From NCBI GenBank assembly GCA_902801465.1, contig CADCIH010000005.1, positions 62,001-126,000 of the forward strand: a DNA stretch of 64,000 nt, read 5' to 3'. Of this stretch, positions 7,039-57,036 are shown piece by piece. A model generated the notes under the pieces. That model had not been told where the DNA came from, did not search any database, and saw only the letters and a list, made by a program, of their open reading frames with translations. Source of the DNA: an uncultured Bacteroidia bacterium (lineage in GTDB: Bacteria > Bacteroidota > Bacteroidia > Bacteroidales > F082). How positions within the stretch are numbered: position 1 is the stretch's first letter; every line of letters begins with the position of its first letter. The translations under genes and the position numbers were made by a program.

Positions 7039-7079
7039 GCCAATTGTTAATAAATTGCCCCTTTTTGTTGATAAATCCC

Positions 7080-7111
7080 AAGCCTTCCTTGTTTACAACA
7101 AGGAGGGCTTT
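7080..7111 (+). other. Strong stem-loop upstream of the giant cargo gene
   Basis: AAGCC and TCCTTGT pair with ACAAGGA and GGCTT around a short loop, with one internal mismatch. It has no T-run directly after it and sits immediately before the TATTTTTG promoter element of the next gene, inside the spacer where RNA polymerase would bind. It could be a second terminator remnant or a regulator site. Confidence 0.6.
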
Positions 7112-7114
7112 ACG

Positions 7115-7122
7115 TATTTTTG
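7115..7122 (+). promoter_or_regulatory. Bacteroidota -7 element for the giant cargo gene
   Basis: TATTTTTG matches TAnnTTTG and lies 68 bases before the ATG at 7191. A TTG at 7089-7091 lies 23 bases upstream, within the left arm of the preceding stem-loop. Confidence 0.5.
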
Positions 7123-7190
7123 TAAGATGGCTATTTGGAAGAATGAATGATCTAAATTATTAAATATCAATTAATTAAATTATCAACAAA

Positions 7191-20054: not shown

Positions 20055-20144
20055 GAATTCGGAATGCGGAATTCGGAATTCGGAATTCGGAATTTCCTTA
20101 TCTGAAAAGCAATTCCGCATTCCGCATTCATAATTCCGAATTTA
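20047..20144. repeat. Heptad-repeat inverted element, copy 1
   Basis: The left arm holds seven 7-base units of the type GGAATTC or GGAATTA from 20047 to 20095. The core CCTTATCTGAAAAGC occupies 20096-20110. The right arm, inverted, carries units of the type ATTCCGC and ATTCATA to 20144. The stop codon of the nucleotidyltransferase gene (20052-20054) lies in the left arm. The core and the first 27 bases of the right arm recur at 28859-28900 with one difference. Confidence 0.9.
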
Positions 20145-28838: not shown

Positions 28839-28916
28839 GAATTATGAATGCGGAATTACCTTGTCTGAAAAGCAATTCCGCATTCCGCATTCATAATTCC
28901 TAATTCCTAATTCTTA
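28828..28916. repeat. Heptad-repeat inverted element, copy 2
   Basis: The left arm holds 7-base units of the type GCGGAAT and TAGGAAT from 28828. The core CCTTGTCTGAAAAGC lies at 28859-28873. The inverted right arm has units of the type ATTCCGC and ATTCCTA to 28916. The TAG stop of the beta-helix lipoprotein (28836-28838) is in the left arm and the stop of the convergent lpxD (28914-28916) is at the end of the right arm. Confidence 0.9.
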
Positions 28917-29855
28917 CTCCGGATGGTCTCGGTAATAATCCTTTAACAAATCGGGAAGTTTACGCATGGCGGCTTGTTCGCGCCATTGCTTGCGGACATC
29001 TTGGGCGGGAACGCCGAAGACGGCCTTGCCGGGTTCGATGTTCTTGTCCACGGCAGAGGTGGCCAGCACCACGGCGCCTTCGCCGATGACGAGGTCCTTG
29101 TTGACGCACACACGTCCCCACAGAATCACGTCGTCTTCGATGCGGGTGACGCCGGCAATGGCGGCATGGCTGCCTATGAGGCAGTTGCGTCCGATATAAC
29201 TGTCGTGGCCAACCTGGCAATGGTTGTCCATCTTGGTTCCGCGGCGGATGGTGGTGTCGCTGGTGACACCTTTGTCGATGCTGCACAAAGCACCGATCTC
29301 CACATCATCCTCAATCACCACGCGGCCAAACGACTCGAACTTCTTGTAGCTGTCGGCCCGGCGTTGGAAATAATAGGCGTCGGCACCGATCACACTGCCA
29401 GAGTGGATGATGACGTTGTCGCCAATCACACAGTAGTCGTAGATGGTGACATTGGGATGGATGATGCAGTTTTTGCCGATAACGGCATGGTTCCCGACAA
29501 AAGAGCCGGGCATCACGATGGTCCCCTCGCCTATCTCTGCCGAGGGACTGATGGCCTCGGTGCAGGTCTCCTTGGGACGGTAATGACGCATCGCACGGAG
29601 AAAGGCATCGAAAGGATCGTCGTGAATGAGCAGGGCCTTGCCCTCGGGGCATTCCACGCGCTTGTTGATCAAGACTACCGTGGCCGCCGAGTTCAAGGCC
29701 TTGCCATAATACTTGGGGTGATCCACAAAGGTCACGTCGCCGGGCTCAACCTTATGAATCTCGTTGAAGCCCGTGATGGGGAACTTCGGGTCACCGACAT
29801 ATTCCGCGCCGATCATCTCGGCGAGTTTTTTCAATGTGGTCTGCGGGATTTTCAT
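28914..29855 (-). CDS. lpxD: UDP-3-O-acylglucosamine N-acyltransferase, LpxD family
   Basis: LpxD adds the N-linked 3-hydroxyacyl chain to UDP-acylglucosamine in lipid A synthesis. The start at MKIPQTTLKK gives 313 residues. An N-terminal uridine-binding domain (about 1-95) is followed by a left-handed beta-helix of hexapeptide repeats (IGEGTIVMPGSFVGNHAVIG) and a C-terminal helix. The likely catalytic His is in HCQVGHDSYIG near residue 214. The start codon shares one base with the stop of efp (TGATG), so the pair is translationally coupled. Bacteroidales often carry more than one LpxD paralogue, so the exact acyl acceptor is not certain. Confidence 0.85.
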   Translation of the reverse strand: MKIPQTTLKKLAEMIGAEYVGDPKFPITGFNEIHKVEPGDVTFVDHPKYYGKALNSAATVVLINKRVECPEGKALLIHDDPFDAFLRAMRHYRPKETCTEAISPSAEIGEGTIVMPGSFVGNHAVIGKNCIIHPNVTIYDYCVIGDNVIIHSGSVIGADAYYFQRRADSYKKFESFGRVVIEDDVEIGALCSIDKGVTSDTTIRRGTKMDNHCQVGHDSYIGRNCLIGSHAAIAGVTRIEDDVILWGRVCVNKDLVIGEGAVVLATSAVDKNIEPGKAVFGVPAQDVRKQWREQAAMRKLPDLLKDYYRDHPE

Positions 29856-30418
29856 CAGGCTTTCACACGTTCGCAATATTCACCGGTGCGGGTGTCCACA
29901 CGGATCATATCGTCGGTGTTGATGAACAGAGGCACACGGACCATGGCGCCAGTCTCAACGGTAGCTTCCTTCAGAGCGTTGGTGGCAGTGTTGCCCTTCT
30001 CGCCAGGCTCGGTGTAGGTGACTTGCAGCACGGTCTTCACAGGCATCTCAGCGTACAGGATGGTCTCTGTTGAAGCATCAACCACGACGTCGACGATGTC
30101 GTTTTCCTTCATGAACTTCACACCTGTGATGTTGTCGCCGGCGATCGGAATCTGATCGTAGGTCTCGGTGTGCATGAAGATGAAGTCTTCACCTTCCTTG
30201 TAAAGGAACTGGTAAGGACGGTGTTCCACGCGGACATCTTCCAGCTTCACACCGATGTCGAATCTCTTTTCAAGTACGTTGCCGCTGAGGACATCCTTCA
30301 GCTTGATACGCATGATAGTGTTGCCTTTACCGGGCTTAACATGTTGGAAGTCAATGCAGAAATAAATCTTTCCGTCCATGCGGATGGCGCTTCCGATCTT
30401 TACATCTTGACTAAGCAT
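29855..30418 (-). CDS. efp: Translation elongation factor P
   Basis: EF-P rescues ribosomes stalled at consecutive prolines. The 187-residue protein has the three-domain layout and the KPGKGN loop near residue 28-33, where Lys31 corresponds to the modified Lys of other EF-Ps. The C-terminal domain carries GAMVRVPLFINTDDMIRVDTR. No modification gene lies next to it in this window. It is followed by lpxD with a TGATG overlap. A TAATTTTG element and a period-7 repeat lie in its leader. Confidence 0.95.
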   Translation of the reverse strand: MLSQDVKIGSAIRMDGKIYFCIDFQHVKPGKGNTIMRIKLKDVLSGNVLEKRFDIGVKLEDVRVEHRPYQFLYKEGEDFIFMHTETYDQIPIAGDNITGVKFMKENDIVDVVVDASTETILYAEMPVKTVLQVTYTEPGEKGNTATNALKEATVETGAMVRVPLFINTDDMIRVDTRTGEYCERVKA

Positions 30419-30420
30419 AG

Positions 30421-30457
30421 TTCAAATTTATAATTGTTAATTTAGAATTTTGAATTA
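30421..30457. repeat. Heptad array upstream of efp
   Basis: The tetranucleotide AATT recurs at 30425, 30432, 30439, 30446 and 30453, a strict 7-base period over five units. It starts 2 bases upstream of the efp start codon, so here the array is the mRNA leader instead of a gene end. Confidence 0.7.
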
Positions 30458-32962: not shown

Positions 32963-32972
32963 AATTGTTTAA

Positions 32973-33049
32973 TATCTTTTAACTTTTAACTTTTATCTTT
33001 TATCTCTTATCTCTTAACTTTCCGTTCTCCGTTCTCCGTTTTCCACTCA
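32973..33049. repeat. Heptad array between nusB and porQ
   Basis: Eleven 7-base units run without a gap. The first seven are of the TAACTTT or TATCTCT type, three are of the CCGTTCT type, and the last is degenerate. The stop codon of nusB (33047-33049, reverse strand) lies in the last unit. Confidence 0.85.
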
Positions 33050-34006
33050 CACCAGCCCTCTCCCCGTCTTCATGATCTTTCCATCGGCATTGAGTTTTTC
33101 TGAGAGCTTGTCGAGGATTCCGTTCACGAAACGGCGGCTGTCGGGGGTGCTGTAGTATTTCGAGATCTCGATATATTCGTTGATGGTGACTTTCACCGGG
33201 ATGTCATGGAACTGTTGGAACTCTGTCAAGGCCATGAAGATGATGATTTTGTCCATCAAGGCGATGCGGTCGTAGTCCCAGTTGGAGATGTTGGCTTTCA
33301 CTAGTTCGCGATACTCATCGGCGTTTTTCATGGTGAGACGGAACAGTCGCACGATGAAGTTCTTGTCGTCGTTGGTCTCGCCGTTTTCGGTCTTGAAAGC
33401 GGCTGGGATCTTGGTGTCGGGACCGAAGTCCTCTTCCATCTCGTTGAAGAATTTCCAGAGGAGGAACAGGCAGATTTGGTAATCGCTATTGAAGACCAGG
33501 TTTTTGTCGGAATAGAAGTCGAACAGCACGTCGTCCTCGGCCATATAGTTGTCGATGATGCTGAGGATTAGTTTTTTATCGAGTGCGAAGCTGCTTTTTT
33601 CGCTATTCATATATTCCTGGTATTCAGGATATTCACGCATCCTGTTGTAGAAACCACGGATGAAGTCCTCTCGGTCGTTGTCCCAGTTGATCTTGTACTT
33701 TTCCTGAAGAGCCTGGAGGTCGCGGTTGTTTTCGAGGGCGTTGATGACGCGGTTGTTGACGAACTTGCGGTTCGGGTTGAGGTCTTCCTGTGTGGGGAAG
33801 TTTTTGTGCATGTTCTCCTCGATGCGGCGTTCGGCGAAGCATTTCACCTCGACCCAGAATGTCAGTTGGCGGATAAATAGTTCATAAAGGCTGTCAACAC
33901 TGTCGAGAAGACGGCGTTCGGCGGCCAGCAGGTCAGTCTCTTCGGCTTGATGGTAGGCGTAGATCTGCTGCAACACCTTGACTCTCAAAAACCTTCTGTT
34001 AAGCAT
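33047..34006 (-). CDS. nusB: Transcription antitermination factor NusB (long form)
   Basis: NusB works with NusE in antitermination of rRNA transcription. The 319-residue protein is about twice the length of the E. coli protein, as is usual for Bacteroidales. The N-terminal LRVKVLQQIYAYHQAE and the C-terminal IPVKVTINEYIEISKYY and RRFVNGILDKL are the conserved NusB stretches, separated by an insertion rich in acidic and aromatic residues. A TAAATTTG promoter element lies about 30 bases upstream. The stop codon falls at the edge of a heptad array. Confidence 0.93.
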   Translation of the reverse strand: MLNRRFLRVKVLQQIYAYHQAEETDLLAAERRLLDSVDSLYELFIRQLTFWVEVKCFAERRIEENMHKNFPTQEDLNPNRKFVNNRVINALENNRDLQALQEKYKINWDNDREDFIRGFYNRMREYPEYQEYMNSEKSSFALDKKLILSIIDNYMAEDDVLFDFYSDKNLVFNSDYQICLFLLWKFFNEMEEDFGPDTKIPAAFKTENGETNDDKNFIVRLFRLTMKNADEYRELVKANISNWDYDRIALMDKIIIFMALTEFQQFHDIPVKVTINEYIEISKYYSTPDSRRFVNGILDKLSEKLNADGKIMKTGRGLV

Positions 34007-34109: not shown

Positions 34110-34625
34110 ATGATTAGCAAAAAATTGGCAAAAGCCATCAACGACCAGATCAACGCTGAGATGTGGTCGGCCTATCTCTATCTGAGCATGTCGCAGGACA
34201 TCTACGCCAAAGGTTTCAAGGGCATCGCCCACTGGTACAAAGTCCAGTTCCTCGAGGAACAGGCCCATGCCGCCATCATGATCAACTATCTGCATTCGCA
34301 GGACGAAAAGGTGATTCTCGCCCCCATCGCCAAGGTGCAAACCAGTTGGAAGACCGTCTTGGCTGCTTTTGAGGACACCCTCGCCCACGAGAAGAAGGTG
34401 ACCGCCATGATCAATAATCTGTGCGACATCGCCGACGAGGACCACGACCGCGCCGCAGCCAACTTCCTGGCTTGGTTCATCGACGAGCAAGTCGAGGAAG
34501 AGGAGAACGCCCGCGACCTCATCGCCCAATGCAAGATGATCGACGGCCACATGGGTGGCATGATGATGCTCGACAAAGAGCTCGGTGCCCGCGAGTACCA
34601 CACTCCTTCACCGCTGAAAGATTAA
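34110..34625 (+). CDS. Ferritin (bacterial non-haem type)
   Basis: The protein oxidises Fe(II) and stores iron in a 24-subunit shell. The 171-residue sequence shows the ferroxidase ligands in AEMWSAYLYL near residue 17, EEQAHA near 50 (Glu and His), the Glu in EDTLAHEKK near 90-94, and DEQVEEEE near 127-130. Length is typical. It is a single-gene unit between a divergent promoter region and a bidirectional terminator. No haem-binding Met is apparent, which favours the FtnA type over bacterioferritin. Confidence 0.93.
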   Translation: MISKKLAKAINDQINAEMWSAYLYLSMSQDIYAKGFKGIAHWYKVQFLEEQAHAAIMINYLHSQDEKVILAPIAKVQTSWKTVLAAFEDTLAHEKKVTAMINNLCDIADEDHDRAAANFLAWFIDEQVEEEENARDLIAQCKMIDGHMGGMMMLDKELGAREYHTPSPLKD

Positions 34626-34676
34626 AACGGAACCCCGAAGGGCTCACCGACCGAAAGGGAGGTAAAACGGAAAATT

Positions 34677-34704
34677 AAAAGCCTCGCAATACTGCGAGGC
34701 TTTT
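34677..34704. terminator. Bidirectional intrinsic terminator
   Basis: GCCTCGCA pairs exactly with TGCGAGGC around a 4-base loop, flanked by AAAA on the left and TTTT on the right. It can stop both the ferritin transcript and the convergent subtilase transcript. Confidence 0.85.
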
Positions 34705-34728
34705 ATTGTTGTTAGGAAAAACTTCCGC

Positions 34729-37634: not shown

Positions 37635-39050
37635 TTATTGGTTTTCCGTTCTCCGTTTAAAAACCTTCTTCCTAAGCATAAACACCGTTAGTACCGCCCA
37701 GAATACGACCAATATCCCCAAGGTTATCCAGGTGGACTGGAGACTCTGAGGAGCTATGCCCACCAGCAGCAGCACTGGGAAGCCTAATACCACTGCGGCA
37801 AGAGCCTGCAAAACCAGGTTGTTGGCAGCCGGAGTCTCAAACTTCGGGTCGATCTCACGCAATAGGATCATGCCATTCGAGGCGGTACCGGTAAGCATGC
37901 CGAACATCGAGAAGAAGCCTTCGTACTTGTAATCGGGATACAGATGCTTGCTGATCCACAGCACGTACACAAAGGTGACGATGGCGCCAAGCGCACAGAT
38001 GATGCTGAAAGGCAACACAAACTTGCCGAATTCATCGAAACTGATGGCAGCGGTGCCAGCCACAATCATGATGTCGAAACAGAAACCTCCGATACGGTTC
38101 AACATGTAATTATTAATGTATTCGCGTTCCATGATGCGTTGTTTCTTGAACACTTTCAGGATGTTCTTGAAAGCGATGCCGAACAGGGTGCCCAACAGGA
38201 AGTTGAATCCCCACAGCAACGGTTTCAACGTGTTGGTGCCGAAGTTGCCCAAATCCATCCCTTGGATCCAGTTGGTGAACAGATACACTAGGAAATACAC
38301 AAAGAGCACCATGCAGATCTGCACCGACAACTTGTCGATCGACTCGGCATCGGGGATCTCCCCTTTGCCCTCATAGTCCTCCAGCTTGTTGACTTGAGCC
38401 GCTTCAATCTTCTTGGAAGACAGCTTGCCTTTGCGTCTCAAAATATTCATGTAGATGACGCCAATCAGGCTTCCCACAATGAAACCCATCGCAGCAATGG
38501 AAAGGCCGAAGTCGGCTCCCGCAAAGTCGATGCCTTGGGCTTCTGCCCATCCTGTGTAGATCTTACCAATGTTCAGCGCTTGGCCAGGTCCTTGTCCGTA
38601 GCCCATCGGCAACAGCAGACCTGCGGCATAGAAGAACTTCTTTCCGACAAGGAAGAAAAGGATGGAGACGACCAGACCTATGATGCCTTGGATGACATAG
38701 GTGGCAGCCGTCAAAGCACCTGTCTCGATGACCTTCATGCCCGACGATTTCGACTCCACTTTATTGTTTTTCAGCGCCAGCGCCACAAAGCCCAGACCAA
38801 GGGCATGGTAAGTGACAATCTCCATCATGGGCTTGTTGATGATCTCGCGGCATCCTGGGAAAGCCTTGAACAACAGAAGCAACAGACCGCCCAGCAAGGC
38901 GGAAGGCAGAAGGCTCTTCTTCAGGAAGGGAATTTGGGTCCTCAGCACATTGCCCAAGAGCAAGGCGACAGCGAGGATACAGAACTGGACCAACCATTGC
39001 CAGGCCTCGGGCCGGTCAAAGGTCATTACGGAAACGTCTAGTATTGTCAT
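37635..39050 (-). CDS. gltS: Sodium:glutamate symporter (GltS/ESS family)
   Basis: The 471-residue inner-membrane protein has about 11-12 spans and two ESS-family re-entrant signatures: GYGQGPGQALNIGKIYTG near residue 153 and GMLTGTASNGMILLREIDP near 390. It should import glutamate with sodium. The length is within the family range, slightly long because of a cytoplasmic loop near 225-250. The C-terminal RRTENQ is encoded by a short CCGTTCT-type heptad stretch. The gene is convergent with rplS and divergent from the chromate-transporter pair. Confidence 0.88.
   Translation of the reverse strand: MTILDVSVMTFDRPEAWQWLVQFCILAVALLLGNVLRTQIPFLKKSLLPSALLGGLLLLLFKAFPGCREIINKPMMEIVTYHALGLGFVALALKNNKVESKSSGMKVIETGALTAATYVIQGIIGLVVSILFFLVGKKFFYAAGLLLPMGYGQGPGQALNIGKIYTGWAEAQGIDFAGADFGLSIAAMGFIVGSLIGVIYMNILRRKGKLSSKKIEAAQVNKLEDYEGKGEIPDAESIDKLSVQICMVLFVYFLVYLFTNWIQGMDLGNFGTNTLKPLLWGFNFLLGTLFGIAFKNILKVFKKQRIMEREYINNYMLNRIGGFCFDIMIVAGTAAISFDEFGKFVLPFSIICALGAIVTFVYVLWISKHLYPDYKYEGFFSMFGMLTGTASNGMILLREIDPKFETPAANNLVLQALAAVVLGFPVLLLVGIAPQSLQSTWITLGILVVFWAVLTVFMLRKKVFKRRTENQ
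37642..37659. repeat. Short heptad stretch in the gltS 3' end
   Basis: Two to three 7-base units of the TTTTCCG and TTCTCCG type occur, the same units as in the array between nusB and porQ. They lie inside the last codons of gltS, 5 bases before its stop. Confidence 0.5.
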
Positions 39051-43149: not shown

Positions 43150-45231
43150 ATGGAAAACAAGTATGAATCGTTGAACCGCTATGCCAAGAACTTGAATGAA
43201 TTGGCGAAAGCGGGTAAGTTAGACCCTGTAATCGGGCGTGATGAGGAGATAAGGCGTGTGCTGCAGATCCTGTCGCGCCGTACCAAGAACAATCCTATCC
43301 TGATTGGTGAGCCTGGCGTGGGCAAGACCGCCATTGTGGAAGGTCTCGCCCAGCGTGTAATGAACGGCGACGTGCCGGAGAATCTGAAGAGCAAGAAAGT
43401 GTTCTCGCTCGACATGGGTGCCTTGATAGCAGGCGCCAAATACCAAGGTGAGTTTGAGGAACGTCTGAAGAGTGTCATCAAGGAAGTGGTCGACAGCGCT
43501 GGCGAGGTGGTGTTGTTTATCGATGAGATACACACCTTGGTGGGTGCGGGTGCCACTGGAGGCGCCATGGACGCAGCCAACATCCTGAAGCCTGCCCTTT
43601 CGCGTGGTGAGCTGCAATGCATCGGCGCCACCACCTTGAAAGAATACCAGCAGTATTTCGAGAAGGACAAGGCCTTGGAACGTCGTTTCCAGATTGTCAT
43701 GGTCGACGAGCCTGACGAAGCCTCGGCCATCTCCATCTTGCGTGGACTGAAGGAACGTTACGAGAACCATCATCATATCCGTATCCTCGATGAGGCCATC
43801 GTGGCTGCCGTGCAGCTCTCGGTGCGTTATATCAGCGACCGTTTCTTGCCCGACAAGGCCATCGACCTGATTGATGAGGCCGCTGCCCGTTTGCGTCTGC
43901 AGATCGACTCGGTGCCGGAGGACCTCGAGAATGTGGAACGCGCCATACGTCAGCTTGAAATAGAACGCGAGGCACTGAAACGTGAGAACGACACCAAGAA
44001 GGTCCAGGAAATCAGTATGGAACTGGAGAAACTCAACGCCAAGAAGGCGGAGATCAAGCATAAATGGGAGCAGGAACGCCATTTCGTGGAGATCATCCAG
44101 AAAGAAAAGAACAACATCGAACAATACAAACACCAGGCTGCCGCCGCCGAGCGCGAAGGCGACTATGGCCGGGTGGCTGAACTGCGTTACGGCAAGATCC
44201 GTGATGCAGAGACTGCCATCGAGCAGGCCAAGGCTGAACTCAACAGGGTTCAGGGCGACCATCCTTTGATCGACGAAGAGGTCTCCTACCAGGATGTGGC
44301 GGAGATTGTGTCGCGTTGGACAGGTATCCCGGTAAAGAAAATGATGCAGAGCGAGCGTGAGAAGTTGCTTCATCTTGAAGAAGAACTGCACAAGCGTGTG
44401 GTGGGTCAAGACGAGGCCATCCGTGCCGTCAGCGACGCCATCCGTCGTAGCCGCGCGGGCTTGCAGGATGCCAAACGTCCTATTGGTTCCTTCATCTTCA
44501 TGGGTACCACAGGCGTTGGTAAGACCGAACTGGCCAAGGCTCTGGCCGAGTTCCTGTTCGACAACGAGAACAACATGGTGCGTATCGACATGTCGGAATA
44601 CCAGGAGCGTCACACCGTATCGCGTTTGATAGGCGCGCCTCCAGGATATGTCGGCTACGAAGAGAGCGGCCAACTCACTGAAGCTGTACGACGTAAGCCG
44701 TACTCGGTGATCTTGCTCGATGAAATCGAGAAAGCTCACCCGGATGTCTTCAACATCCTGCTTCAGGTGCTCGACGATGGACGTCTGACCGATAATAAAG
44801 GACGTACTGTCGACTTCAAGAACACCATTGTCATCATGACCTCCAATGTAGGTGCTGGCCTCAAAGACCGTGAAGCTGTCATCAACGAGTTGCGTCAGGT
44901 GATGCGCCCCGAGTTCTTGAACCGTATTGATGAGATTATCGTTTTCGACGACCTCAGCGAGAGCCAAATCGCCGAAGTGGTACGGATGCAGTTCAACCGC
45001 GTCAAGAAGATGCTGGCCGAAAACAGCATCACCATCGACATCACCGACGAAGCCGTGGAACTCATCGCCCATCAGAGCTACGACCCACAGTACGGCGCAC
45101 GTCCTGTGAAGCGTATGATGCAGCGTGAACTGCTCAACGAGCTGTCAAAAATGATCATCGCTGATAAAGTCGATAGGACCAAACCCATCACCGTCACCGT
45201 AAAAGACGGAGCCCTCCACTTCGAAAACTAA
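43150..45231 (+). CDS. clpB: ClpB-type disaggregase lacking the N-terminal domain
   Basis: ClpB pulls polypeptides out of aggregates with DnaK. The 693-residue protein has AAA-1 with GEPGVGKT near residue 57 and FIDEIHT near 125, a coiled-coil middle domain from about 255 to 375 (heptad-rich, ending near [12 protein letters not shown]), and AAA-2 with GTTGVGKTE near 455 and [10 protein letters not shown] near 525. The middle domain separates it from ClpA and ClpC. Full-length ClpB is about 860 residues; the first 150 (Clp_N) are absent, and the 140 bases upstream do not encode them. The stop lies in a heptad array. Confidence 0.92.
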
Positions 45232-45256
45232 TTCTTAATTCTTAATTCTTAATTCT
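45229..45256. repeat. Heptad array between convergent clpB and trkH
   Basis: Four exact copies of the unit TAATTCT run from 45229 to 45256. The first TAA is the clpB stop, and the trkH stop (45256-45258, reverse strand) overlaps the array's last base. In three consecutive units the TAA falls in all three reading frames. Confidence 0.9.
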
Positions 45257-46770
45257 CACCCCCTCACTCCCTTCGTCGTCATCCACGTGGACTTGAAGAA
45301 AATCAACAACACGGTGATGATTTCCAGACGACCGAGGAGCATGTCGGCTGACAAAATCCATTTGGCAGCCGTTGGCAGATCAGCCAAGCTAGCACCTGGG
45401 CCTGTGGCCCCCGAGCCCATGCCCAGGTTGCTGAAACATGTCAAAAAAGCAACACTGGCATCTTCCAGGTCCATCCCTACCCAACTCAATACGAAAACAT
45501 TGATAACAAAAAGGATCAAAAACCACGAAAGGAAATTGCACACCCTTCGTACCGTGATGTCGTCAACAGACTGTCCTGAGATTTTTACGGAATACATCCC
45601 GGTTGGATGAATCAACTCGTTCAATGCATTCTTGATGAATTTCACAATCACCATGATGCGAACCATCTTGATACCGCCGCTGGCGGATCCTGCGCAACCA
45701 CCGATGATCTGCATCAACAAGGTTGGAATCACAAAGAGCATTCCCCACAGGTCGTAGTTGGAGTTTTGCGATGAAAAGCCTGTGTTGGATAACATCGAGG
45801 TCACGTGAAACAGCGAGGTTTTGAACAAGTCCTTCCCTCCTTCCGGATAGCTGGCCAGTTGTTGCTCAGTGACTCCATCGATCCTTGGTGCGACGAGGAA
45901 TAGAGTGATGAAAAATAAAGTCATCACTATTATTGATATAAAATAAACCCTAACCTCTTCGTTTTTAAAGATTAGATTCCAGCGTCCGGCGGCAAGGAAG
46001 TAAAACATCGAGAAGTTGATGGCGGAGAGAAACATAAATGCGACGGCCACGTATTCGATGTAGTTGGACTGGTAATAGGCGAGGCTGTCCTGATGGGTGC
46101 TGTAACCGCCGGTGGAAATGGTGGTAAAGGCGTGGCATACCGCGTCGAAAACCGACATTGGGCCCATGGCGTACATAAAGGCGCAAAGCACGGTCATAAA
46201 GATGTAAATACCCCATAGGATGCGTGAGGTGACATGCATCGAGGGCGAGAGTTTCTCAACGCTCAAGCCAGGTGCCTCGGCGGCGAAGAGACTGGCTTTT
46301 TTTGAACCTTTAGCCACTGAAGGAATAAAGGCCAAGGTGAACACCACGATACCTAATCCTCCCAGCCATTGCATGATGGCGCGCCAGAAGAGGATGCCGT
46401 GAGTCTGGTCATCTACGTTCTTCAAGATGGTTGACCCCGTAGTGGTGAAGCCTGAGATGGTCTCGAAAAAGGCATCGGTAACGTTGGTGATGGATCCGCT
46501 TAGAAGGAAAGGAAACATCCCGAAAAGGGAGAACAGTATCCATGACAGTGACACGATCACAAAGGTGTCGTCGTTGTCGAAGGCTTTCTTTCTCCACCGT
46601 CCGAAAAGGTACAGTCCCAGTCCCACCCCACCTGTGATGGCGGCGGTGATCAGAAAGGCAGGGTAATCGTTTTCGCCGCATTTTACATGAAAAAACCACG
46701 ACACTGCCGCCGTTAGCAGCAGTGCCGCGGTCTCAATGAATAAGAGTACCCCGAAAAGCCTGCTTTTCAT
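45256..46770 (-). CDS. trkH: Potassium uptake protein TrkH
   Basis: TrkH is the membrane channel subunit of a Trk/Ktr-type potassium importer. The 504-residue protein shows the four pore-loop repeats: TTTGSTI near residue 110, FTTISTGGYST near 222, LSNTGFSSQN near 325, and FSNLGMGSG near 445. About ten to twelve membrane segments are visible. A TrkA regulatory subunit is needed in characterised systems and is not in this window. The gene is followed by a DUF2750 gene upstream with a 3-base gap, so they may be co-transcribed. Confidence 0.93.
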   Translation of the reverse strand: MKSRLFGVLLFIETAALLLTAAVSWFFHVKCGENDYPAFLITAAITGGVGLGLYLFGRWRKKAFDNDDTFVIVSLSWILFSLFGMFPFLLSGSITNVTDAFFETISGFTTTGSTILKNVDDQTHGILFWRAIMQWLGGLGIVVFTLAFIPSVAKGSKKASLFAAEAPGLSVEKLSPSMHVTSRILWGIYIFMTVLCAFMYAMGPMSVFDAVCHAFTTISTGGYSTHQDSLAYYQSNYIEYVAVAFMFLSAINFSMFYFLAAGRWNLIFKNEEVRVYFISIIVMTLFFITLFLVAPRIDGVTEQQLASYPEGGKDLFKTSLFHVTSMLSNTGFSSQNSNYDLWGMLFVIPTLLMQIIGGCAGSASGGIKMVRIMVIVKFIKNALNELIHPTGMYSVKISGQSVDDITVRRVCNFLSWFLILFVINVFVLSWVGMDLEDASVAFLTCFSNLGMGSGATGPGASLADLPTAAKWILSADMLLGRLEIITVLLIFFKSTWMTTKGVRG

Positions 46771-47190: not shown

Positions 47191-49146
47191 TTAGCGTCTT
47201 GAGTTTCTCGCCTGTTGTTGTTGCATCTTCTGTGCTTCTTCAAGGCGTTGTTGGAAACGTGATTTCTTTTGGGGTTTTCTCTTGTTTTCCTCGATGGTCG
47301 CACGAACTTTGTCCTCGTTGATCATTCTGCGGAACACGAACATCTGGATGAAGGTGATGATGTTGGCGAGCATGTAGTAGTAGCTCAAACCAGCCGAATA
47401 GCTGTTGAAGATACCAAGGAACATGATCGGCATGATGTACATCATGATCTTCATTCCTTTCATCTGGGGATTGGCCGTGGTGTCCATTTGCTTGTTGTTG
47501 ACATACGTGTAGATGAACGTGGTGATGGTCATCAGCAGGCAGAAGAGACTCACGTGGTCGCCGTAGAACGGGATGTTGAACGGCAGGTCCCAAATGCTAT
47601 CGTATGTGGAGAGGTCGTCGGCCCACAGGAACGACTGTTGGCGCAGTTCAATTGACGAGGGGAAGAACCTGAATACGGCGATGAGGATGGGGAACTGGAG
47701 CAGCATGGGGATGCATCCCGAGGTGGGACTTGCACCAGCTTGTCGTTGCAGTTCCATCACCGCCTGTTGTTTCTTCATGGCATCCTCTTCTTTGGGATAC
47801 TTGGCGCTGATGGCTTCCATCTCAGGTTTCAACACGCGGGTGATGGCGGTTGACTTGTAAGATTTGAAGGCAATCGGGAACAGGAGTATCTTGATGAGGA
47901 TGGTGAGGATGAGGATCACGATGCCGTAGTTCCATCCGTAGGATCCCAGCCAGTCGAACACATAGATGACTCCGTAGTTGATCCAGCGGATCAGGAAGAA
48001 GTTACCCACGTCGATCTGGCGCTGGAGCTTCAGGTCGTAGCTCTTCAGCGTCTTGAAGTGGTTGGGGCCGAAATAGAACGACATGGGGAACTCGTTGATT
48101 TCCGCGTTGCTGTTGTACGGAATCTCAAGGCTTGCCGCCATGGTCTTGAAGTAGCGGTCCGACTTGGGACCATCGGTATTGGCTGCGATTTTGGCACTGC
48201 TGAAACCGTTGCGGGCTACTAGCACATTGCAGAAGAAACGCTCTTTGAACGACACCCAGTTGATGCTGTAGTTGATGTTCTCCTCTTTGTGCTTGCGGTC
48301 GTCGAGACGATCCACTTCGTTCTCCGTCATTGGCTTATAGTACACCGTGGTGTTGATGAACCTGTCATTATCCTTTTCATGCTTGAGGATATCGACTTTC
48401 CAGTCGAGGTTCATGTAGTTGATGTTGTTGGCAATGACGTCGTTCAGACCTACCGTACGAAGGTCGAAGTCAAGCATGTAGTTGTCGTCGCGCAACGTAT
48501 AGACGTATTCGAGATACTTGTTCTCGTCACGTAGTCCGTTGATATCGTCGGCATAGGCGCGCAAAGTGAGCACGACATCATCGCCCTCGTTGGTGAACAT
48601 GTCGCCACCTTGGTAGGGCTTTCCGTTGACGAAAGGTTGGAAGTAGAGTTGGGAGGTATTGATGATACGGTTGTTGGCGAAGAACGAGAGGTCGAACACG
48701 GCGGTCTCCGGGTCGAAGTTGATCAAGGGCAGGGAGTCGAAGGTCCGATAGTCTTTCAGCTCCACTTGCTTGATGTAACCACCTTTGCTGGAGATGGTGA
48801 TCCGTTGGAGTTGGTTCTCCAAGGTCCATAATTGCTCCTCTCCCATCGAGGCCGAAGCAAAAGCGCCATATTTCTCACGGGTAAGTAGGTACTGATGTGC
48901 TGCGGCTGTGGCCGAGTCCATCTCGATCTCAGGTAGCGACGTCATGGCCTGTTCTTGGGCAACACTTTGTTGCTCTTCGGCAAGTCTGATTGAATCCATG
49001 ATGGCGGCCTCTTGGCGTGCCCTCATGATGGAGTCTTGGATGCGTCGCTGTTCAGCAAGCTCCTCTTTGGAAGGCTGCATGGAATACATCCAACCAAAGA
49101 GGACTGCTGCAATTAAAAGAAAACCTATAAGGGATGATTTGTTCAT
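47191..49146 (-). CDS. yidC: Membrane protein insertase YidC
   Basis: YidC inserts and folds inner-membrane proteins, with or without SecYEG. The 651-residue protein has an N-terminal span (residues 5-23), a large periplasmic beta domain (about 90-370), and the conserved core of five spans from about 375 on. Core marks are NYGIVILILTILIKILLFPI near 415, the hydrophilic-groove Arg in YKSTAITRVLKPEM, and GASPTSGCIPMLLQFPILIA near 475. The C-terminal tail is basic and Gln-rich (KKSRFQQRLEEAQK). Its start lies 2 bases from a heptad array that ends at the GAPDH stop. Confidence 0.95.
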   Translation of the reverse strand: MNKSSLIGFLLIAAVLFGWMYSMQPSKEELAEQRRIQDSIMRARQEAAIMDSIRLAEEQQSVAQEQAMTSLPEIEMDSATAAAHQYLLTREKYGAFASASMGEEQLWTLENQLQRITISSKGGYIKQVELKDYRTFDSLPLINFDPETAVFDLSFFANNRIINTSQLYFQPFVNGKPYQGGDMFTNEGDDVVLTLRAYADDINGLRDENKYLEYVYTLRDDNYMLDFDLRTVGLNDVIANNINYMNLDWKVDILKHEKDNDRFINTTVYYKPMTENEVDRLDDRKHKEENINYSINWVSFKERFFCNVLVARNGFSSAKIAANTDGPKSDRYFKTMAASLEIPYNSNAEINEFPMSFYFGPNHFKTLKSYDLKLQRQIDVGNFFLIRWINYGVIYVFDWLGSYGWNYGIVILILTILIKILLFPIAFKSYKSTAITRVLKPEMEAISAKYPKEEDAMKKQQAVMELQRQAGASPTSGCIPMLLQFPILIAVFRFFPSSIELRQQSFLWADDLSTYDSIWDLPFNIPFYGDHVSLFCLLMTITTFIYTYVNNKQMDTTANPQMKGMKIMMYIMPIMFLGIFNSYSAGLSYYYMLANIITFIQMFVFRRMINEDKVRATIEENKRKPQKKSRFQQRLEEAQKMQQQQARNSRR

Positions 49147-49147
49147 C

Positions 49148-49182
49148 TAACTTCTTACTTCTAACTTCTAACTTCTTAATAA
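49148..49182. repeat. Heptad array between GAPDH and yidC genes
   Basis: Five 7-base units of the TAACTTC or TTACTTC type, the last one degenerate, run from 49148 to 49182. The stop codon of the GAPDH gene (49176-49178, reverse strand) is in the last unit, and the yidC start codon is 2 bases outside the other end. Confidence 0.85.
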
Positions 49183-50624
49183 TACCTGTAGCTCTTCACC
49201 TCGCCGATATGGCGTGCGAGGCGGATCACCTGGTTGCTGTAGCCGAACTCGTTGTCGTACCACAGGTAGAGGATCACGGTCTTGCCGTCTTCGCTGACCT
49301 TGGTGGCGGGAGCGTCGAAGATGCAGGCGCAGCTGTCGCCGATGCCGTCGCTGCTGACGAACTCGGTGTTGCTGCTGAAGCGGATCTGCTCGATGAGGTT
49401 GCCTTCGAGGCAGGCCATACGGAAGGCCTCGTTGACTTCTTCGACGGTGGTCGGACGTTCAAGGTCGAGGGCGAGCACTGCCAATGACACGTCGGGCGTA
49501 GGAACGCGGACGGCGTTGCTGGTCAGCTTGCCTTTCAGTTCGGGGATGGCTTTGGCAGCGGCCTTGCCGGCACCGGTCTCGGTGATGACCATGTTCAAGG
49601 CGGCGCTACGGCCACGACGCTCTTTCTTGTGGTAGTTGTCCAGCAAGTTCTGGTCGTTGGTGTAGCTGTGGATGGTCTCGATATGGCCTTTCACGATGCC
49701 GAAGTTCTTTAACATGACTTCAAGGCCGGGCACGATGGCGTTGGTGGTGCAGCTGGCAGCTGAGAACACGTGTTCTTTCTCGAGGTCGAGGGTGTCTTGG
49801 TTGACGCCATAGACCACATTCGGGATGTCGCCCTTGCCAGGAGCGGTGAGCAGCACCTTGCTGACACCCTTGGCTTGGAGGTGACGTTCGAGTGACTCTC
49901 TGTCGCGGAAAGCGCCGGTGTTGTCGATCAACAGGGCGTCATTAATGCCATAGGCGGTGTAGTCGAGGTCCTCAGGGTTCTTGGCTTCAAGGAAGAGGAT
50001 CTTCTGGCCGTTGACCATCATGGCGTTCTCGCCGGGGACGGGAGTGCACACGCCGTGGAAATAACGGTGTACGGAGTCGGTGCGGAACAGGTTGATACGC
50101 TTGGCGATATCCTCGGGTGAGTTCTTGCGGGTGACGATGGCGCGGATGCGGAGGGCGTCGCCTCTGCCGGCCATCTCCGTCATCTCACGGCAGAGGATAC
50201 GGCCGATACGACCGAAACCGTAAAGGATGACATCCTGGTGTCTGTTGCTACGCGGGACGGCATCGATGATGTAGCCGAGTTTGTCGCGGACAAAAGCAGT
50301 GACGTCGTTGTTGTACTTGTCATGCTCGTCGGTCCATTCTGAGTTGAGTCGTCCGATGTCGATACGGGCAGGAGCCAGATTCTCTGCCAGCAAGGCCTTG
50401 GCGATCAGCAGTGAATCCTGAACGCGGACGGGCTTGCCCAGCACGGTGGCGGCACGAAGGTGCTTGTTGAGGATCTTGCCTGAACCGCGGTTCACCAACA
50501 GCGAACGCAACAGGATCAGTTCCACTGACTTGTCGTACCACAGCCTACCCACGATGTTGATGAGTTCGTTGGCGGCCTTCTCGTTTTCATTCCATGACTT
50601 AAGAGAGCTTTCGTAACTATCCAT
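49176..50624 (-). CDS. Glyceraldehyde-3-phosphate dehydrogenase (long Bacteroidales type)
   Basis: The start at MDSYESSLKSWNENE gives 482 residues, about 140 more than classical GAPDH because of an N-terminal helical extension. The NAD-binding YGFGRIGR lies near residue 135, and the catalytic Cys is in FSAASCTTNAIVPG near 300, with the substrate-binding His in IETIHSYTNDQN near 330 and the C-terminal WYDNEFGYSNQV. This long form is widespread in Bacteroidales. Direction (glycolytic or gluconeogenic) and NAD or NADP preference cannot be fixed from the sequence. A TATTTTTG element lies about 40 bases upstream. Confidence 0.9.
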   Translation of the reverse strand: MDSYESSLKSWNENEKAANELINIVGRLWYDKSVELILLRSLLVNRGSGKILNKHLRAATVLGKPVRVQDSLLIAKALLAENLAPARIDIGRLNSEWTDEHDKYNNDVTAFVRDKLGYIIDAVPRSNRHQDVILYGFGRIGRILCREMTEMAGRGDALRIRAIVTRKNSPEDIAKRINLFRTDSVHRYFHGVCTPVPGENAMMVNGQKILFLEAKNPEDLDYTAYGINDALLIDNTGAFRDRESLERHLQAKGVSKVLLTAPGKGDIPNVVYGVNQDTLDLEKEHVFSAASCTTNAIVPGLEVMLKNFGIVKGHIETIHSYTNDQNLLDNYHKKERRGRSAALNMVITETGAGKAAAKAIPELKGKLTSNAVRVPTPDVSLAVLALDLERPTTVEEVNEAFRMACLEGNLIEQIRFSSNTEFVSSDGIGDSCACIFDAPATKVSEDGKTVILYLWYDNEFGYSNQVIRLARHIGEVKSYRYY

Positions 50625-50660
50625 AATATCTTTTTTATAAGGTGAATAAATAGAATTTTG

Positions 50661-50668
50661 CAAAAATA
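50661..50668 (-). promoter_or_regulatory. Bacteroidota -7 element for the GAPDH gene
   Basis: The reverse strand reads TATTTTTG, matching TAnnTTTG, about 37 bases before the chosen start, and so supports 50624 over the upstream alternative start at 50663. Confidence 0.55.
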
Positions 50669-53720: not shown

Positions 53721-54242
53721 ATGTTCATTTCCGATGGAATTATTTCTATAAGAATAGCAGAGCCTGAAGATGCCTCCCTGATCTACCAGTGGGAGAACGA
53801 CAGAAGCCTCTGGAGGGTGAGTGAGACCAATGTGCCGACCTCCCTTTTCCAGATAGAACAGTTTCTATTAGGAAACTCTGACTTGTTTGGCAACAGGCAA
53901 CAACGGCTCATGATTCTCCTTAAAGGGGAAGAGCAACCTATAGGGAGCATCGACCTGTTCGATTACGATCCCGTCAACAGCCGCGTGGGTATAGGTGTGC
54001 TCGTTGAGAACGGCTACCGAGGCAAGGGATATGCAACCTCCGCCATGCGACTGTGTCTCGACTATCTCTTCAATAACCTGATGATTCATCAGGTACATTG
54101 CATCATCGATGTGACCAACGAGGAAAGCCATCGCCTGTTTCGTGGGTTGGGCTTCAGCGAAGGCGGCCGCCGCTCCGACTGGATCAAAACGCCCGAAGGA
54201 TATCTTGATGTGGTGTTCTATCAAAAAATCCACCAAGCATGA
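53721..54242 (+). CDS. GNAT-family N-acetyltransferase (RimJ/RimL-like)
   Basis: The start at MFISDGIISIRIAEPED gives 173 residues. The acetyl-CoA binding signature is ENGYRGKGYATSAMRLCLDY near residue 95, and the C-terminal IIDVTNEESHRLFRGLGF is the typical GNAT beta6-alpha4 stretch. It probably acetylates an amine of a small molecule or a protein N-terminus; the substrate is not visible. It overlaps mltG by an ATGA. The upstream in-frame TTG at 53676 lies in the promoter box, so I rejected it. Confidence 0.85.
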   Translation: MFISDGIISIRIAEPEDASLIYQWENDRSLWRVSETNVPTSLFQIEQFLLGNSDLFGNRQQRLMILLKGEEQPIGSIDLFDYDPVNSRVGIGVLVENGYRGKGYATSAMRLCLDYLFNNLMIHQVHCIIDVTNEESHRLFRGLGFSEGGRRSDWIKTPEGYLDVVFYQKIHQA

Positions 54243-55261
54243 AAAAGAAAATCTTCATAGGAATCATCGTTGTCATAGTAATGCTTGCCATTATGGCAGG
54301 CTATCAAGTTTACAACGCCGTCATGAAACCCAATGTGGCCGTTCACGGCCAAAAGGATTTCTCCTTGTTCATCCCCACGGGTGCCGACTTTGATCAAGTG
54401 AAGGATTCACTATATGGTAACGACCTTATCGTCAGCCACAAAAGTTTCGAGTGGTGGGCCGGACAAAGGGACTATACCGATGATGTGAAACCAGGACATT
54501 ATATCCTGCGCAACGGAATGAGCAACCGTCAGTTGTTAAACCTCCTTGATGGCGGGTTGCAGACTCCCGTCAAGGTGACCTTCAACAATATGCGTACTGT
54601 TGCCCAGCTGGCTGGTCGTATCGGTGAACAGATCGAGGCCGACTCTGCCGACATCGTGAACTATCTCAGTGACCCCTCCAACCTGGCTGATTTGGGCTTC
54701 AACCGACAAACCATTCCCGCCTTGTTCCTACCCAATACGTACGAATTCTATTGGAACACCAACGCGGCCCAGTTTGCTGAGAAGATGAAAAAGGAATACG
54801 AGAAATTTTGGAACGGTGAGCGGCTTGAGAAAGCCAAGAACATCGCCCTCTCTCCTGTCCAGGTAAGCATTTTGGCCTCCATCGTCGACAAGGAGACCAA
54901 CAAAACCGACGAGATGCCTAGAATCGCCGGGGTGTATCTCAACAGGCTTAGAAACGGATGGTTGCTTCAAGCCGACCCTACCCTGGTGTTTGCCGTAGGC
55001 GACTTCAACCTGAAACGGGTACTCAACATCCACAAGGAAGTTGAGTCTCCATACAATACCTACAAGTATCCAGGGCTGCCTCCTGGACCAATCTGCATTC
55101 CTTCATTGGCATCAATTAATGCGGTTTTGAATGCGGAGAAACACAATTATTATTATTTTTGCGCAAAAGATGACTTCTCGGGATATCATGTGTTTGCGAA
55201 AACGCTGACGGAACATAATAGGAATGCGCAGAGGTATCAGAGAGAGTTGGGGAGGAGATAA
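54239..55261 (+). CDS. mltG: Endolytic murein transglycosylase MltG
   Basis: MltG cuts nascent peptidoglycan strands and sets glycan chain length. The 340-residue protein has a single N-terminal membrane span (residues 5-25), a LysM-like region near 40-110, and the YceG catalytic domain with the active Glu in SILASIVDKETNKTDEM near 220 and the conserved PYNTYKYPGLPPGPICIP near 275. It overlaps the GNAT gene (ATGA), and its stop codon begins a heptad array that ends at the start of the next gene. Confidence 0.93.
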   Translation: MKKKIFIGIIVVIVMLAIMAGYQVYNAVMKPNVAVHGQKDFSLFIPTGADFDQVKDSLYGNDLIVSHKSFEWWAGQRDYTDDVKPGHYILRNGMSNRQLLNLLDGGLQTPVKVTFNNMRTVAQLAGRIGEQIEADSADIVNYLSDPSNLADLGFNRQTIPALFLPNTYEFYWNTNAAQFAEKMKKEYEKFWNGERLEKAKNIALSPVQVSILASIVDKETNKTDEMPRIAGVYLNRLRNGWLLQADPTLVFAVGDFNLKRVLNIHKEVESPYNTYKYPGLPPGPICIPSLASINAVLNAEKHNYYYFCAKDDFSGYHVFAKTLTEHNRNAQRYQRELGRR

Positions 55262-55305
55262 AAGTTAAGAGATAAAAGATAAAAGTTAAAAGTTAAAAGA
55301 TGAAA
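55257..55305. repeat. Heptad array between mltG and the manB fusion gene
   Basis: Seven 7-base units of the GATAAAA or GTTAAAA type run from 55257 to 55305 with no break. The mltG stop (55259-55261) is in the first unit and the next gene's ATG (55300-55302) is in the last, so the array fills the whole intergenic region. Confidence 0.9.
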
Positions 55306-57036
55306 GCATTTAAAGCGTATGACATCAGAGGGGAATGGGGCACCGACTTGAATGAGGAGATTGCCTATCGCATCGGTTATTTCCTTCATAGGATTCTGGA
55401 TGTTGACACTGTCCTGGTGGGTCGCGACATGAGGCTCTCGTCGGATGCCATGTTCGAAAACCTCACACGGGGTATTACCGATAGTGGCGTCAACGTTGAT
55501 GAGATTGGCCTTTCCACCACCCCGATGGTCTATTGGAGCACCGCCAAATATGGATACGATGCCTCGGTGATGATCACCGCCTCACACAACCCCAAGAACC
55601 ACAATGGACTGAAGATATCCAAAACCAACGCCCTTCCAGTGGGGTACGACACGGGGCTGAACCGTCTCGAAGCCTTTGTGGAAAGCGACGAACCCTGCGT
55701 TCCTGTTGCCAAAAAAGGCATCATCCGCCATAAAGAAGTAAAAGACGACTATCTGAAGTTTCAACTCGGCTATGTGGGTGACCTTTCCAACCTCAACATC
55801 GCGGTGGACTGCAGCAGTGGCATGTCGTCGCTGTTTGTCCATCAGCTCATCGGCAACGCCCATTACATCAACGATACGCTTGATGGTAACTTCCCCAGCC
55901 ATGAGCCCAATCCGCTCGAGGCCGTCAGCCAGGAACAGATCAAGGCACTGGTCAAAAAGGAAGGATGCGACATCGGGTTGCTGTTTGACGGTGATGCCGA
56001 CCGTATCACCTTCATCGACGAGCTGGGTAACTTCATATCGCCTGACTTGATGATCGCATTTCTAGGCAACTATTTTCTCGGTGAACGTCATGAGAAAGGC
56101 ATCGTGCTGCAAGACATCCGCAGCTCGCGTGCCATCCAAGAATACCTTAACCGCTACCAAGCCAAGGTGGAGACCTGGCGTGTGGGCCGTGCTTACGCCG
56201 CGTTGAAACTGCGTGAACTCGACGGTGTGTATGGTGGCGAGTTGGCCGGACACTATTATTTCCGCGACTTCTATTATTCCGACTCTGCCCTGTTGGCCGC
56301 CTCCATCGTGCTGCGCCTGCTGGCCGAGTTCAAGCGTCAAGGCCGCACCATGAGCTCCATTGTCAAGGAGATCTCCCAGTATCAGAACTCCGGTGAGATC
56401 AACTTCAAACTTGAACGCAAGCAGGAAGCCATGGATGCCGTGCGCGACCATTACACCGCCATCGAGAAGCCTGAACGTTACCTCGATTTCGACGGCTACC
56501 GGCTCGACTATCCTGACTGGTGGTTCAACATCAGGCCTTCCAATACCGAGCCATACCTTCGTTTCCTTGCCGAGGCCAAGGATGAGCATAGACTGAAAGA
56601 CGTGATTAAGAAGGTGACCGATATCGTCAAGACGTTCGCTTGCCTGTTGCTGTTCTGTGTCCTCTTTGCCGGATGCGGCCAAAACATCGAAAAATCGCGC
56701 ATACACTTCGACCGTGGGCTGGAACTGATGTACACCACAGCCTATTCCGCCAAAGCAGAGGAAGAGTTCACACTGGCCATCAAATACGACGAAAGCAACC
56801 CTGAGGCTTATTACTATCGCGGCTGCACCAAGTTCAACCAAGGCAAGTTCGACAGTGCCATCCTCGACTTTGAGAAGGCCATTGAACTCCGTCCAGGCTA
56901 TCAGGAAGCAGAGTTTTCCTTGGGCAGGATTTATTTCATCAAAAACGATTACGACATGGCGTGTTTCTACTACCGTTCCGCCCAGCTTCACGGACGGGAG
57001 AACATGGACGACTATGTCAAGTCGTGTCCCGAATAA
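55300..57036 (+). CDS. Phosphomannomutase/phosphoglucomutase fused in frame to a TPR lipoprotein
   Basis: Residues 1-445 are a complete alpha-D-phosphohexomutase: active Ser in MITASHNPKNHNGLKIS near 95, metal loop LLFDGDADRITF near 229, sugar-binding GGELAGHYYF near 314, and phosphate-binding RPSNTEPYLRF near 415. From about 439 the frame continues into what looks like a second protein: a hydrophobic stretch and lipobox (LFAGC, Cys459), then three TPR-like repeats (EAYYYRGCTKFNQGKFDSAI). A membrane segment in the middle of a cytoplasmic enzyme is odd. Either a stop was lost between two genes, or an in-frame GTG at 56602 or 56614 starts the lipoprotein separately. glmM follows after 23 bases. 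Confidence 0.85.
   Translation: MKAFKAYDIRGEWGTDLNEEIAYRIGYFLHRILDVDTVLVGRDMRLSSDAMFENLTRGITDSGVNVDEIGLSTTPMVYWSTAKYGYDASVMITASHNPKNHNGLKISKTNALPVGYDTGLNRLEAFVESDEPCVPVAKKGIIRHKEVKDDYLKFQLGYVGDLSNLNIAVDCSSGMSSLFVHQLIGNAHYINDTLDGNFPSHEPNPLEAVSQEQIKALVKKEGCDIGLLFDGDADRITFIDELGNFISPDLMIAFLGNYFLGERHEKGIVLQDIRSSRAIQEYLNRYQAKVETWRVGRAYAALKLRELDGVYGGELAGHYYFRDFYYSDSALLAASIVLRLLAEFKRQGRTMSSIVKEISQYQNSGEINFKLERKQEAMDAVRDHYTAIEKPERYLDFDGYRLDYPDWWFNIRPSNTEPYLRFLAEAKDEHRLKDVIKKVTDIVKTFACLLLFCVLFAGCGQNIEKSRIHFDRGLELMYTTAYSAKAEEEFTLAIKYDESNPEAYYYRGCTKFNQGKFDSAILDFEKAIELRPGYQEAEFSLGRIYFIKNDYDMACFYYRSAQLHGRENMDDYVKSCPE

Follow-up and report, generated by a model that had tools for sequence, protein, structure and literature searches.

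The STRR sequences that Mazel is said to have described in cyanobacteria in 1990 reportedly consist of short tandem heptads dispersed in the genome, as do the repeats reported here; to our knowledge, neither inverted pairs nor the invasion of protein loops is known for them. REP sequences with their RAYT transposases, and MITEs, are dispersed hairpins at gene ends, some with shared loops, and these traits recur here as well. Unlike REP/RAYT systems and MITEs, however, the present repeats have no fixed hairpin and no tie to the one Y1 transposase of this genome, and the transposase is missing in relatives that bear arrays.

The closest published parallels are heptameric long simple sequence repeats near the end of the upstream gene in Xanthomonas (GGGAATC) and Nostoc (GGGGA(C/T)T), as described in PMC4692102. 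The likeness to that account extends to intergenic arrays by the hundred, built of 7-base units in which some positions vary, and to variation in length and sequence among close relatives. One unit type per genome is given there (PMC4692102), whereas the present genome has several families, with inverted pairs, a core module that travels, units that take one another's place at the same site, and in-frame insertions into conserved proteins. Thus the LSSR/STRR features of head-to-tail 7-base units beyond chance, mainly intergenic position and variable length were all found, and a single consensus unit per genome was not. TAACTGA direct repeats occur in Beggiatoaceae, some Cyanobacteria and a few Bacteroidetes, and according to PMC4679880 they likewise form intergenic heptad arrays of patchy distribution with no known generator; that account has one unit lying mostly just upstream of starts in the main species, whereas the arrays described below lie at 3' ends, avoid starts and use many units. 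Rickettsia palindromic elements (Ogata 2000, 2002) are palindromes in frame in unrelated protein genes (review PMC10969869), comparable to the in-frame palindromes in SufS, MurE and an aspartokinase-like gene here. As characterized in that review, they measure ~150 bp and form families with a conserved peptide, while our elements have arms of 7-base units, free length and order, and many unpaired arrays. The arrays have traits in common with each known system and share all tested features with none. A search of the open PubMed Central literature found no account of heptad arrays in Bacteroidales that form inverted arms or invade protein loops in frame; gene-end heptad arrays are already known in other phyla, and it is the hairpins, the loop invasion and the switching of vocabulary that look new.

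A 7-base period with a restricted vocabulary

The window, the whole 64,000-nucleotide stretch of DNA analysed, comprises bases 62001-126000 of contig 5 of a 2.46-Mb genome (34 contigs, estimated 97.9% complete). The closest named records for its phosphoglucomutase-like gene (55300-57036) were uncultured Bacteroidales, many from the rumen or other animal guts. Arrays were called from 21-base windows with at least 18 matches at a given lag. Within the 64,000 nucleotides of the window, across lags 2-13, 87 such 21-base windows passed at lag 7 and none at any other lag, and when the range was widened to lags 2-30 they passed only at 7 and its multiples 14, 21 and 28. Eight arrays of exact 7-base period at gene ends had been proposed in the initial annotation. 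Six of these are clear by Tandem Repeats Finder, with period-7 arrays at 20047, 28831/28874, 32976/33021, 45229, 49146 and 55256; the other two are weak, and "exact" overstates matches that range from 69 to 100%. Two features of the window had been overlooked, namely that the arrays at 20047-20144 and 28828-28916 are inverted pairs with a common loop, and that a composite element lies at 34626-34676. Units were assigned by pattern rules to a few purine-rich families, chiefly F1 (AAAAGAT/AAAAGTT), F2 (GGAATTA, GGAATGC, AGAATTA etc.), F3 (AACGGAA, AGTGGAA, AACTGAA) and F4 (AGAAGT-like), and the features are as follows (J numbers designate junctions compared among relatives).

20042-20142, no strand: heptad-armed hairpin of F2 (GGAATTC/GGAATGC) in which the purine arm comes first; contains the gene stop TAG 20052-20054; its loop is CCTTATCTGAAAAGC.
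28831-28916, no strand: heptad-armed hairpin of F2, with a 100% stem across the arms as detected (28831-28907); loop CCTTGTCTGAAAAGC, that of 20042-20142; the two convergent genes have their stops at its ends.
30421-30457, no strand: degenerate stretch, rich in A/T, whose 7-base spacing is weak; it lies upstream of the gene at 29855-30418 (minus strand); period 14 only by Tandem Repeats Finder (J20).
32968-33049, minus strand: composite array in which F1 (AAAGATA/AAAGTTA) and F3 (AACGGAG/AACGGAA) adjoin with one orientation; the gene at 33047-34006 (minus strand) has its stop at the array's end; relatives differ (J23).
34626-34676, plus strand: module D, an AACGGAA unit, a ~30-base non-repetitive core (CCCCGAAGGGCTCACCGACC...GGGAGGT) and AAAACGGAAAA, between the gene stop at 34623-34625 and a terminator-like hairpin.
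37642-37659, minus strand: 2.5 TTCTCCG-like units in the last codons of the gene at 37635-39050 (minus strand); not listed by Tandem Repeats Finder (J28).
45224-45262, minus strand: array of four GAATTAA units (F2) between convergent genes; stop TAA 45229-45231 inside; the right gene's stop at 45256-45258 overlaps its end.
49144-49180, minus strand: array AGTTAGA/AGTAAGA (F4-like); stop of the gene at 49176-50663 (minus strand) inside; missing or different in relatives (J37).
55256-55306, plus strand: heptad array AGATAAA/AGTTAAA (F1); fills the whole spacer between the genes at 54239-55261 and 55300-57036, gives the stop TAA 55259-55261 and reaches the next ATG.

The genes flanking the last array are, by their sequences, presumably mltG-like (54239-55261) and phosphoglucomutase-like (55300-57036). 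As the array at 32968-33049 exemplifies, families can adjoin in register. The terminator-like hairpin directly past module D (AAAAGCCTCGC..GCGAGGCTTTT) lies at 34680-34720, and arrays were frequently seen between a gene stop and such a hairpin (e.g., J25).

The lag survey was extended to 864 kb of the genome (the window and 40 further stretches), in which a simple coding-model script called 653 genes with exact stops and approximate starts, which bounds all statements on position. Lag 7 yielded 147 arrays, of which 104 lay mostly between genes and 43 mostly in coding sequence, while each other lag from 4 to 13 gave 0-3 intergenic and 0-4 coding arrays (five or fewer in total per lag). A lag-7 signal no stronger than that at lags 6 and 8 in intergenic DNA had been named beforehand as the result that would speak against a 7-base period; in these 864 kb there were 104 intergenic arrays at lag 7 vs 0 and 3 at lags 6 and 8, respectively, and in 20 of 20 shuffles, in which each intergenic region was shuffled, no lag-7 array was obtained. 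By these gene calls only 89 of the 864 kb are intergenic, yet 104 of the 147 arrays were mostly so. A wider set of 181 arrays, called at a slightly lower threshold, comprised 36 arrays of F1, 60 of F2, 74 of F3, 7 of F4 and 4 others. A perfect unit pair was present in 168 of the 181; just 27 of the 1172 possible heptamer classes were used, and 11 classes covered 155 arrays.

Beyond this genome, the F1 pattern in three copies was found in 24 of the 99 genomes that a genome search counted for the genus, with this genome ranking first (68 matches; the next had 17). One stretch was taken from each of 20 further genomes in the genus, three of these stretches being nearly all masked; lag 7 was again the commonest lag, with different units: AGGGTTG/AGGGATG in G092, for example, and AATTGAC, TAATTCA and GACAACG types in G011. 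One G092 stretch (L133, G092:C1:1-20000) holds at 1167-7962 a dense cluster of AGGGTTG/AGGGATG/AGGGTTT arrays, mainly in one orientation. Period 7 is not universal, because 80 loci of more distant Bacteroidales gave about equal numbers of lag-7 and lag-8 arrays (42 vs 34). Several of these distant relatives (L023-L034) carry 8-base units, AACTGAAC/AACTGAAT, right before the start of the orthologous phosphoglucomutase-like gene, a period-8 counterpart.

Arrays are sorted by reading frame

It had been claimed that a gene's stop codon lies inside six of the eight window arrays, and letter-by-letter inspection confirmed this (20052-20054; 28836-28838 and 28914-28916; 33047-33049; 45229-45231; 49176-49178; 55259-55261). 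The following gene's start was also correctly placed within 55257-55305 (ATG 55300-55302), an atypical arrangement because starts are depleted in arrays: among the 143 arrays not wholly inside genes, 14 held a start vs 31.4 expected (minimum of the random placements, 20). The predicted excess of stops was borne out in the same 143 arrays, 89 of which held a stop vs a random mean of 53.0 and a maximum of 70 in 1000 placements, made within the same spacers so that A/T content is corrected for only indirectly. When arrays were read in the direction of the gene, 87 of 95 array-borne gene stops fell within the first 21 bases. Arrays occurred at 5 of 88 divergent, 28 of 90 convergent and 75 of 434 tandem junctions, and for unpaired arrays at tandem junctions in 464 kb the purine strand was the sense strand in 23 cases vs 7, with 2 ambiguous.

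Gene interiors held 33 of the 181 arrays, very unevenly by family: 0 of 36 for F1, 1 of 60 for F2 and 30 of 74 for F3 (Fisher p = 5e-12, F3 vs F1 and F2). The pure AACGGAA-family unit is stop-free in every frame, and the arrays of this family inside genes are in frame. When arrays were scored by actual stop content the contrast was weaker, with no stop in any of six frames in 14 of 33 interior vs 25 of 148 other arrays (p = 0.004). The near absence of the stop-bearing families F1 and F2 from gene interiors (1 of 96) is what would be expected from purifying selection on arrays that land anywhere, and such a pattern, as of arrays landing widely and being filtered by reading frame, accounts for the excess of stops with no special stop function. 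The initial suggestion that the arrays could be tolerated as all-frame stop cassettes is supported in part: genes do tolerate them at their ends and often take their stop from them, in 87 of 95 cases from the first 21 bases. A specific stop role is not supported, the largest family, F3, having no stop in its pure unit and 30 of its 74 arrays in genes.

Three conserved proteins illustrate the in-frame arrays (heptads in SufS and MurE orthologues were scored at 13 or more of 14 lag-7 matches). In the SufS-like cysteine desulfurase (Aminotran_5) of this genome a loop carries TENGKRKTESLPFSVFRFPFSV; among 16 fetched orthologues, of 90 genomes matching, six had heptads of several different units (this genome, G041, G065, G038, G025 and G032), six had other extra sequence and four a short loop. 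For MurE (Mur ligase), the 16 orthologues fetched of 98 genomes matching comprised nine with heptads in the same loop, one degenerate, four with an 8-residue loop and two with other sequence; in a MurE of G041, outside these 16, a single open frame runs through F3 units, module D and a CTCAACT array. A heptad hairpin lies in an aspartokinase-like protein (AA_kinase) of this genome and of G065, 2 of 14 fetched orthologues, and in none of the other 12. The shared insert site is not simply a matter of descent, because by SufS identity G041 (94%) is nearer to this genome than G065 (86%). In all three genes local loop codons were replaced rather than cleanly added to, and no target-site duplication was found there by eye; the frames are open and the rest of each protein is conserved. 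The SufS loop is evidently a landing place beyond heptads, because in G079 and G013 (L194 and L193) it holds a different, dispersed-looking sequence like TGTCATTGCGAGGAGC. In addition, an 809-residue frame without a Pfam match (L089:7779-10208) was seen to contain two separate F3 inserts.

Hairpins and turnover at orthologous sites

When inverted repeats were sought that had arms of at least 20 bases and loops up to ~45 bases, 45 heptad-armed hairpins were found in the 864 kb, 44 with the purine arm first, none with the pyrimidine arm first and one between, compared with 24, 9 and 20, respectively, for control hairpins without heptads. A count of pairs by another method gave 18 purine first and 0 pyrimidine first for this genome. 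The same order prevailed in G041 (7 of 7) and in G073, G025, G032, G038 and G065 taken together (9 of 9), G011 had one hairpin each way, and in G092 it was opposite (pyrimidine first 5, purine first 1, between 1). Universal purine-first polarity, which holds in this genome, is thus contradicted by G092, and polarity is tied to the unit family or the genome. In several hairpins the stem is perfect and the unit variants follow one another in mirrored order on the two arms, and arms of the same hairpin were more alike than swapped arms at any shift, in a test biased by the choice of hairpins for complementarity.

Loops were shared between loci as well. The two hairpins of the window have the loop CCTT(A/G)TCTGAAAAGC in common, ACCTCCGG occurs in four F2 hairpins, and TAGAGGG..TGTCGC in two. 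Module D (~50 bases, AACGGAACCCCGAAGGGCTCACCGACCGAA(C/A)GGGAGGTAAAACGG) recurs within AACGGAA arrays, nine times in the 864 kb (once in the window), and is present twice in G041; its ten-letter core had 17 matches in the 864 kb, and the units on its two sides tend to agree (ACGG on both or GTGG on both). Module D is the clearest sign of a defined non-repetitive block copied along with the heptads.

Arrays differ between species at the same sites, where relatives have other units, other lengths or nothing. Junctions J23, J25, J28, J34, J37 and J43 all differed among relatives. Between mltG and phosphoglucomutase, where the window has F1, G073 has an AGATAAA type, G025 has TTTAACC, and G079, G049, G038 and RGIG1545 have no array. 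The weak site at 37642-37659 (J28) corresponds to period-7 arrays in G073 and G032 and to a shorter run in G025, with none flagged in G079 or G038. Identity between the sister genomes G073 and G025 is 97% in the best pieces and 94% across an alignment of 31.8 kb, in which 10 of the 23 gaps of 3 bases or more fall in heptad arrays; of the remaining 13, eight lie in one diverged stretch and five elsewhere. The array changes between these two include one of a single unit and one in which both unit and orientation were exchanged, and array length differs at J25 and J28. At the 45231 junction relatives have other heptads, short spacers or no array, and their spacers hold unit-like seeds in the stop region, so that a local origin of these particular arrays from the stop region may be one of the possibilities, judging by those seeds.

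Origin of the arrays

We think it probable that the arrays form a fast-turning, genome-wide population of 7-base repeats that are copied or written into sites and then sorted by selection, copying being the step that we infer. New arrays would be copied or written from existing arrays or from another shared template, the simplest route being template switching and fold-back copying in repair or replication, with gain and loss of units afterwards. Arrival would have to be frequent enough for sister species to differ, and selection would purge arrays that break genes. An F1 or F2 array near a gene end would present an in-frame stop within about three units, and the gene would end there; AACGGAA arrays would be read through and so could survive in surface loops. 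Regarding the molecular route, we hold with moderate confidence that template switching and fold-back copying take place between arrays, followed by slippage.

The initial annotation had offered, as an alternative, that the arrays could be made by slippage or terminal addition. That a copying or writing process is needed, rather than chance, agrees with our results; simple slippage alone is insufficient, because the same few families of unit are met at many loci, inverted pairs are frequent and a non-repetitive module moves with the arrays. Between loci, the sharing of unit order exceeded within-array shuffles for F1 and F3 in a test that counted the arms of one locus as separate arrays. With arms merged per locus and a control in which half of the loci were reversed, the signal was weak for F1 and not above the control for F3 and F2; block copying of plain arrays is therefore not demonstrated, since sharing hardly beats this control. 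Adjacent identical units were slightly more frequent than in shuffles for F2 and not clearly so for F1 and F3 (reached by 66 and 49 of 500 shuffles, respectively). A trend of unit variants along arrays was seen in F1, with GAT before GTT (p = 0.012), and none was seen in F3.

A possible, though doubtful, variant is that a DNA-synthesis activity writes genome-specific heptads, placing 7-base words at breaks or replication ends, singly or as a polarised inverted pair. Each species would have its own small stock of such words, for the most part with the purines on one strand, and relatives would use different vocabularies. If this were true, gene ends, operon spacers and protein loops would be continuously rewritten.

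The 45 heptad-armed hairpins with their one-sided polarity, the shared loops, module D and the in-frame insertions into genes would also suit non-autonomous mobile hairpins of the REP, MITE or Rickettsia palindromic element sort, moved by a transposase in trans, with single arrays as half-elements. We regard this as unlikely, because arm length and unit order vary by copy, many arrays are unpaired and polarity is opposite in G092; inspection by eye showed no target-site duplication at the three invaded genes. Moreover, the 1.5 kb on either side of this genome's sole Y1 transposase (L113) are free of lag-7 arrays, and no Y1 transposase was found in the array-bearing G092, G051, G081 and G038.

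Slippage in situ, in which random 7-base duplications escape mismatch repair and grow locally and the units resemble one another through composition and selection for purine-rich, stop-bearing spacers, would account for the one- and two-unit length changes between sister genomes and for the slight excess of adjacent identical F2 units. In many prokaryotes, moreover, heptamers are more common than any other long simple repeat (Mrazek et al. 2007, cited in PMC4679880). As the sole process it is distinctly unlikely: the 181 arrays draw on just 27 of 1172 heptamer classes, adjacent identical units are not clearly in excess in F1 and F3, and inverted pairs and copies of module D lie beyond it, as does the same vocabulary in conserved proteins whose orthologues have no such local seed. 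MutS is also present in this genome.

Selected signals, such as 3'-end hairpins or leader repeats that serve termination, message stability or protein binding, would be in keeping with the 3'-end position, the avoidance of divergent spacers, the bias of the purine strand to the sense strand (23 vs 7) and the arrays upstream of starts in relatives. Since neither sequence, length nor presence is conserved at orthologous sites, 33 of 181 arrays lie in genes, starts are avoided in this genome, and separate terminator-like hairpins stand beside the arrays at J25 and J28, we consider this very unlikely. Heptad hairpins also occur inside genes. Telomerase-like terminal addition, in which a reverse transcriptase or polymerase extends the two 3' ends of a break with a purine-rich heptad and so makes purine-first inverted pairs, matches the strict period, the species-specific vocabulary and the polarity here (44 of 45) and in G041 (7 of 7), and is highly improbable given the opposite polarity in G092, the several templates that several families per genome would require, and the lack of a close relative of the sole RVT_1 protein found here in the array-bearing G092, G051, G081, G038, G063 and G068.

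The RVT_1 gene (G000:C5:60381-61577; L216:1303-2499) lies ~420 bases before the start of the window and is a homologue of the PADLOC model RT_UG26 (E = 7.6e-158), a name that denotes homology and not function; less than 200 bases upstream of it lie an F1 array and a stretch that is rich in G and may be structured. Close relatives of the protein (E < 1e-140) occur in 24 of the 98 genomes of the genus, a count that includes this one (G000), and a reverse transcriptase was rejected as the general generator given its absence from several array-bearing genomes. No paper joining UG26, reverse transcriptase and DRT was found in the open PubMed Central literature. Y1_Tnp, the only transposase family surveyed, was found in 70 of 98 genomes, a count from which incomplete genomes may hide copies, but G092 and G051 are 99% complete; a Y1 (RAYT-like) transposase was discarded as the general mover, having no arrays beside it and being missing in array-bearing genomes. 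Loss of mismatch repair or of the hairpin nuclease found no support: MutS scores above the cut-off, and an SbcC-like protein is present in this genome below the model cut-off, which 13 of 14 control genomes likewise fail to reach.

Heptameric repeats have been noted in several phyla, and a genus of at least 99 sampled genomes amounts to a comparative experiment on their origin. The same SufS and MurE loops are refilled with different heptad words, whereby arrival, replacement and changes of unit become datable between sister species. The arrays also represent a route by which repetitive DNA can add in-frame peptides to essential enzymes, and they counsel caution in such genomes, where gene-end stop codons and C-termini are partly determined by repeats.
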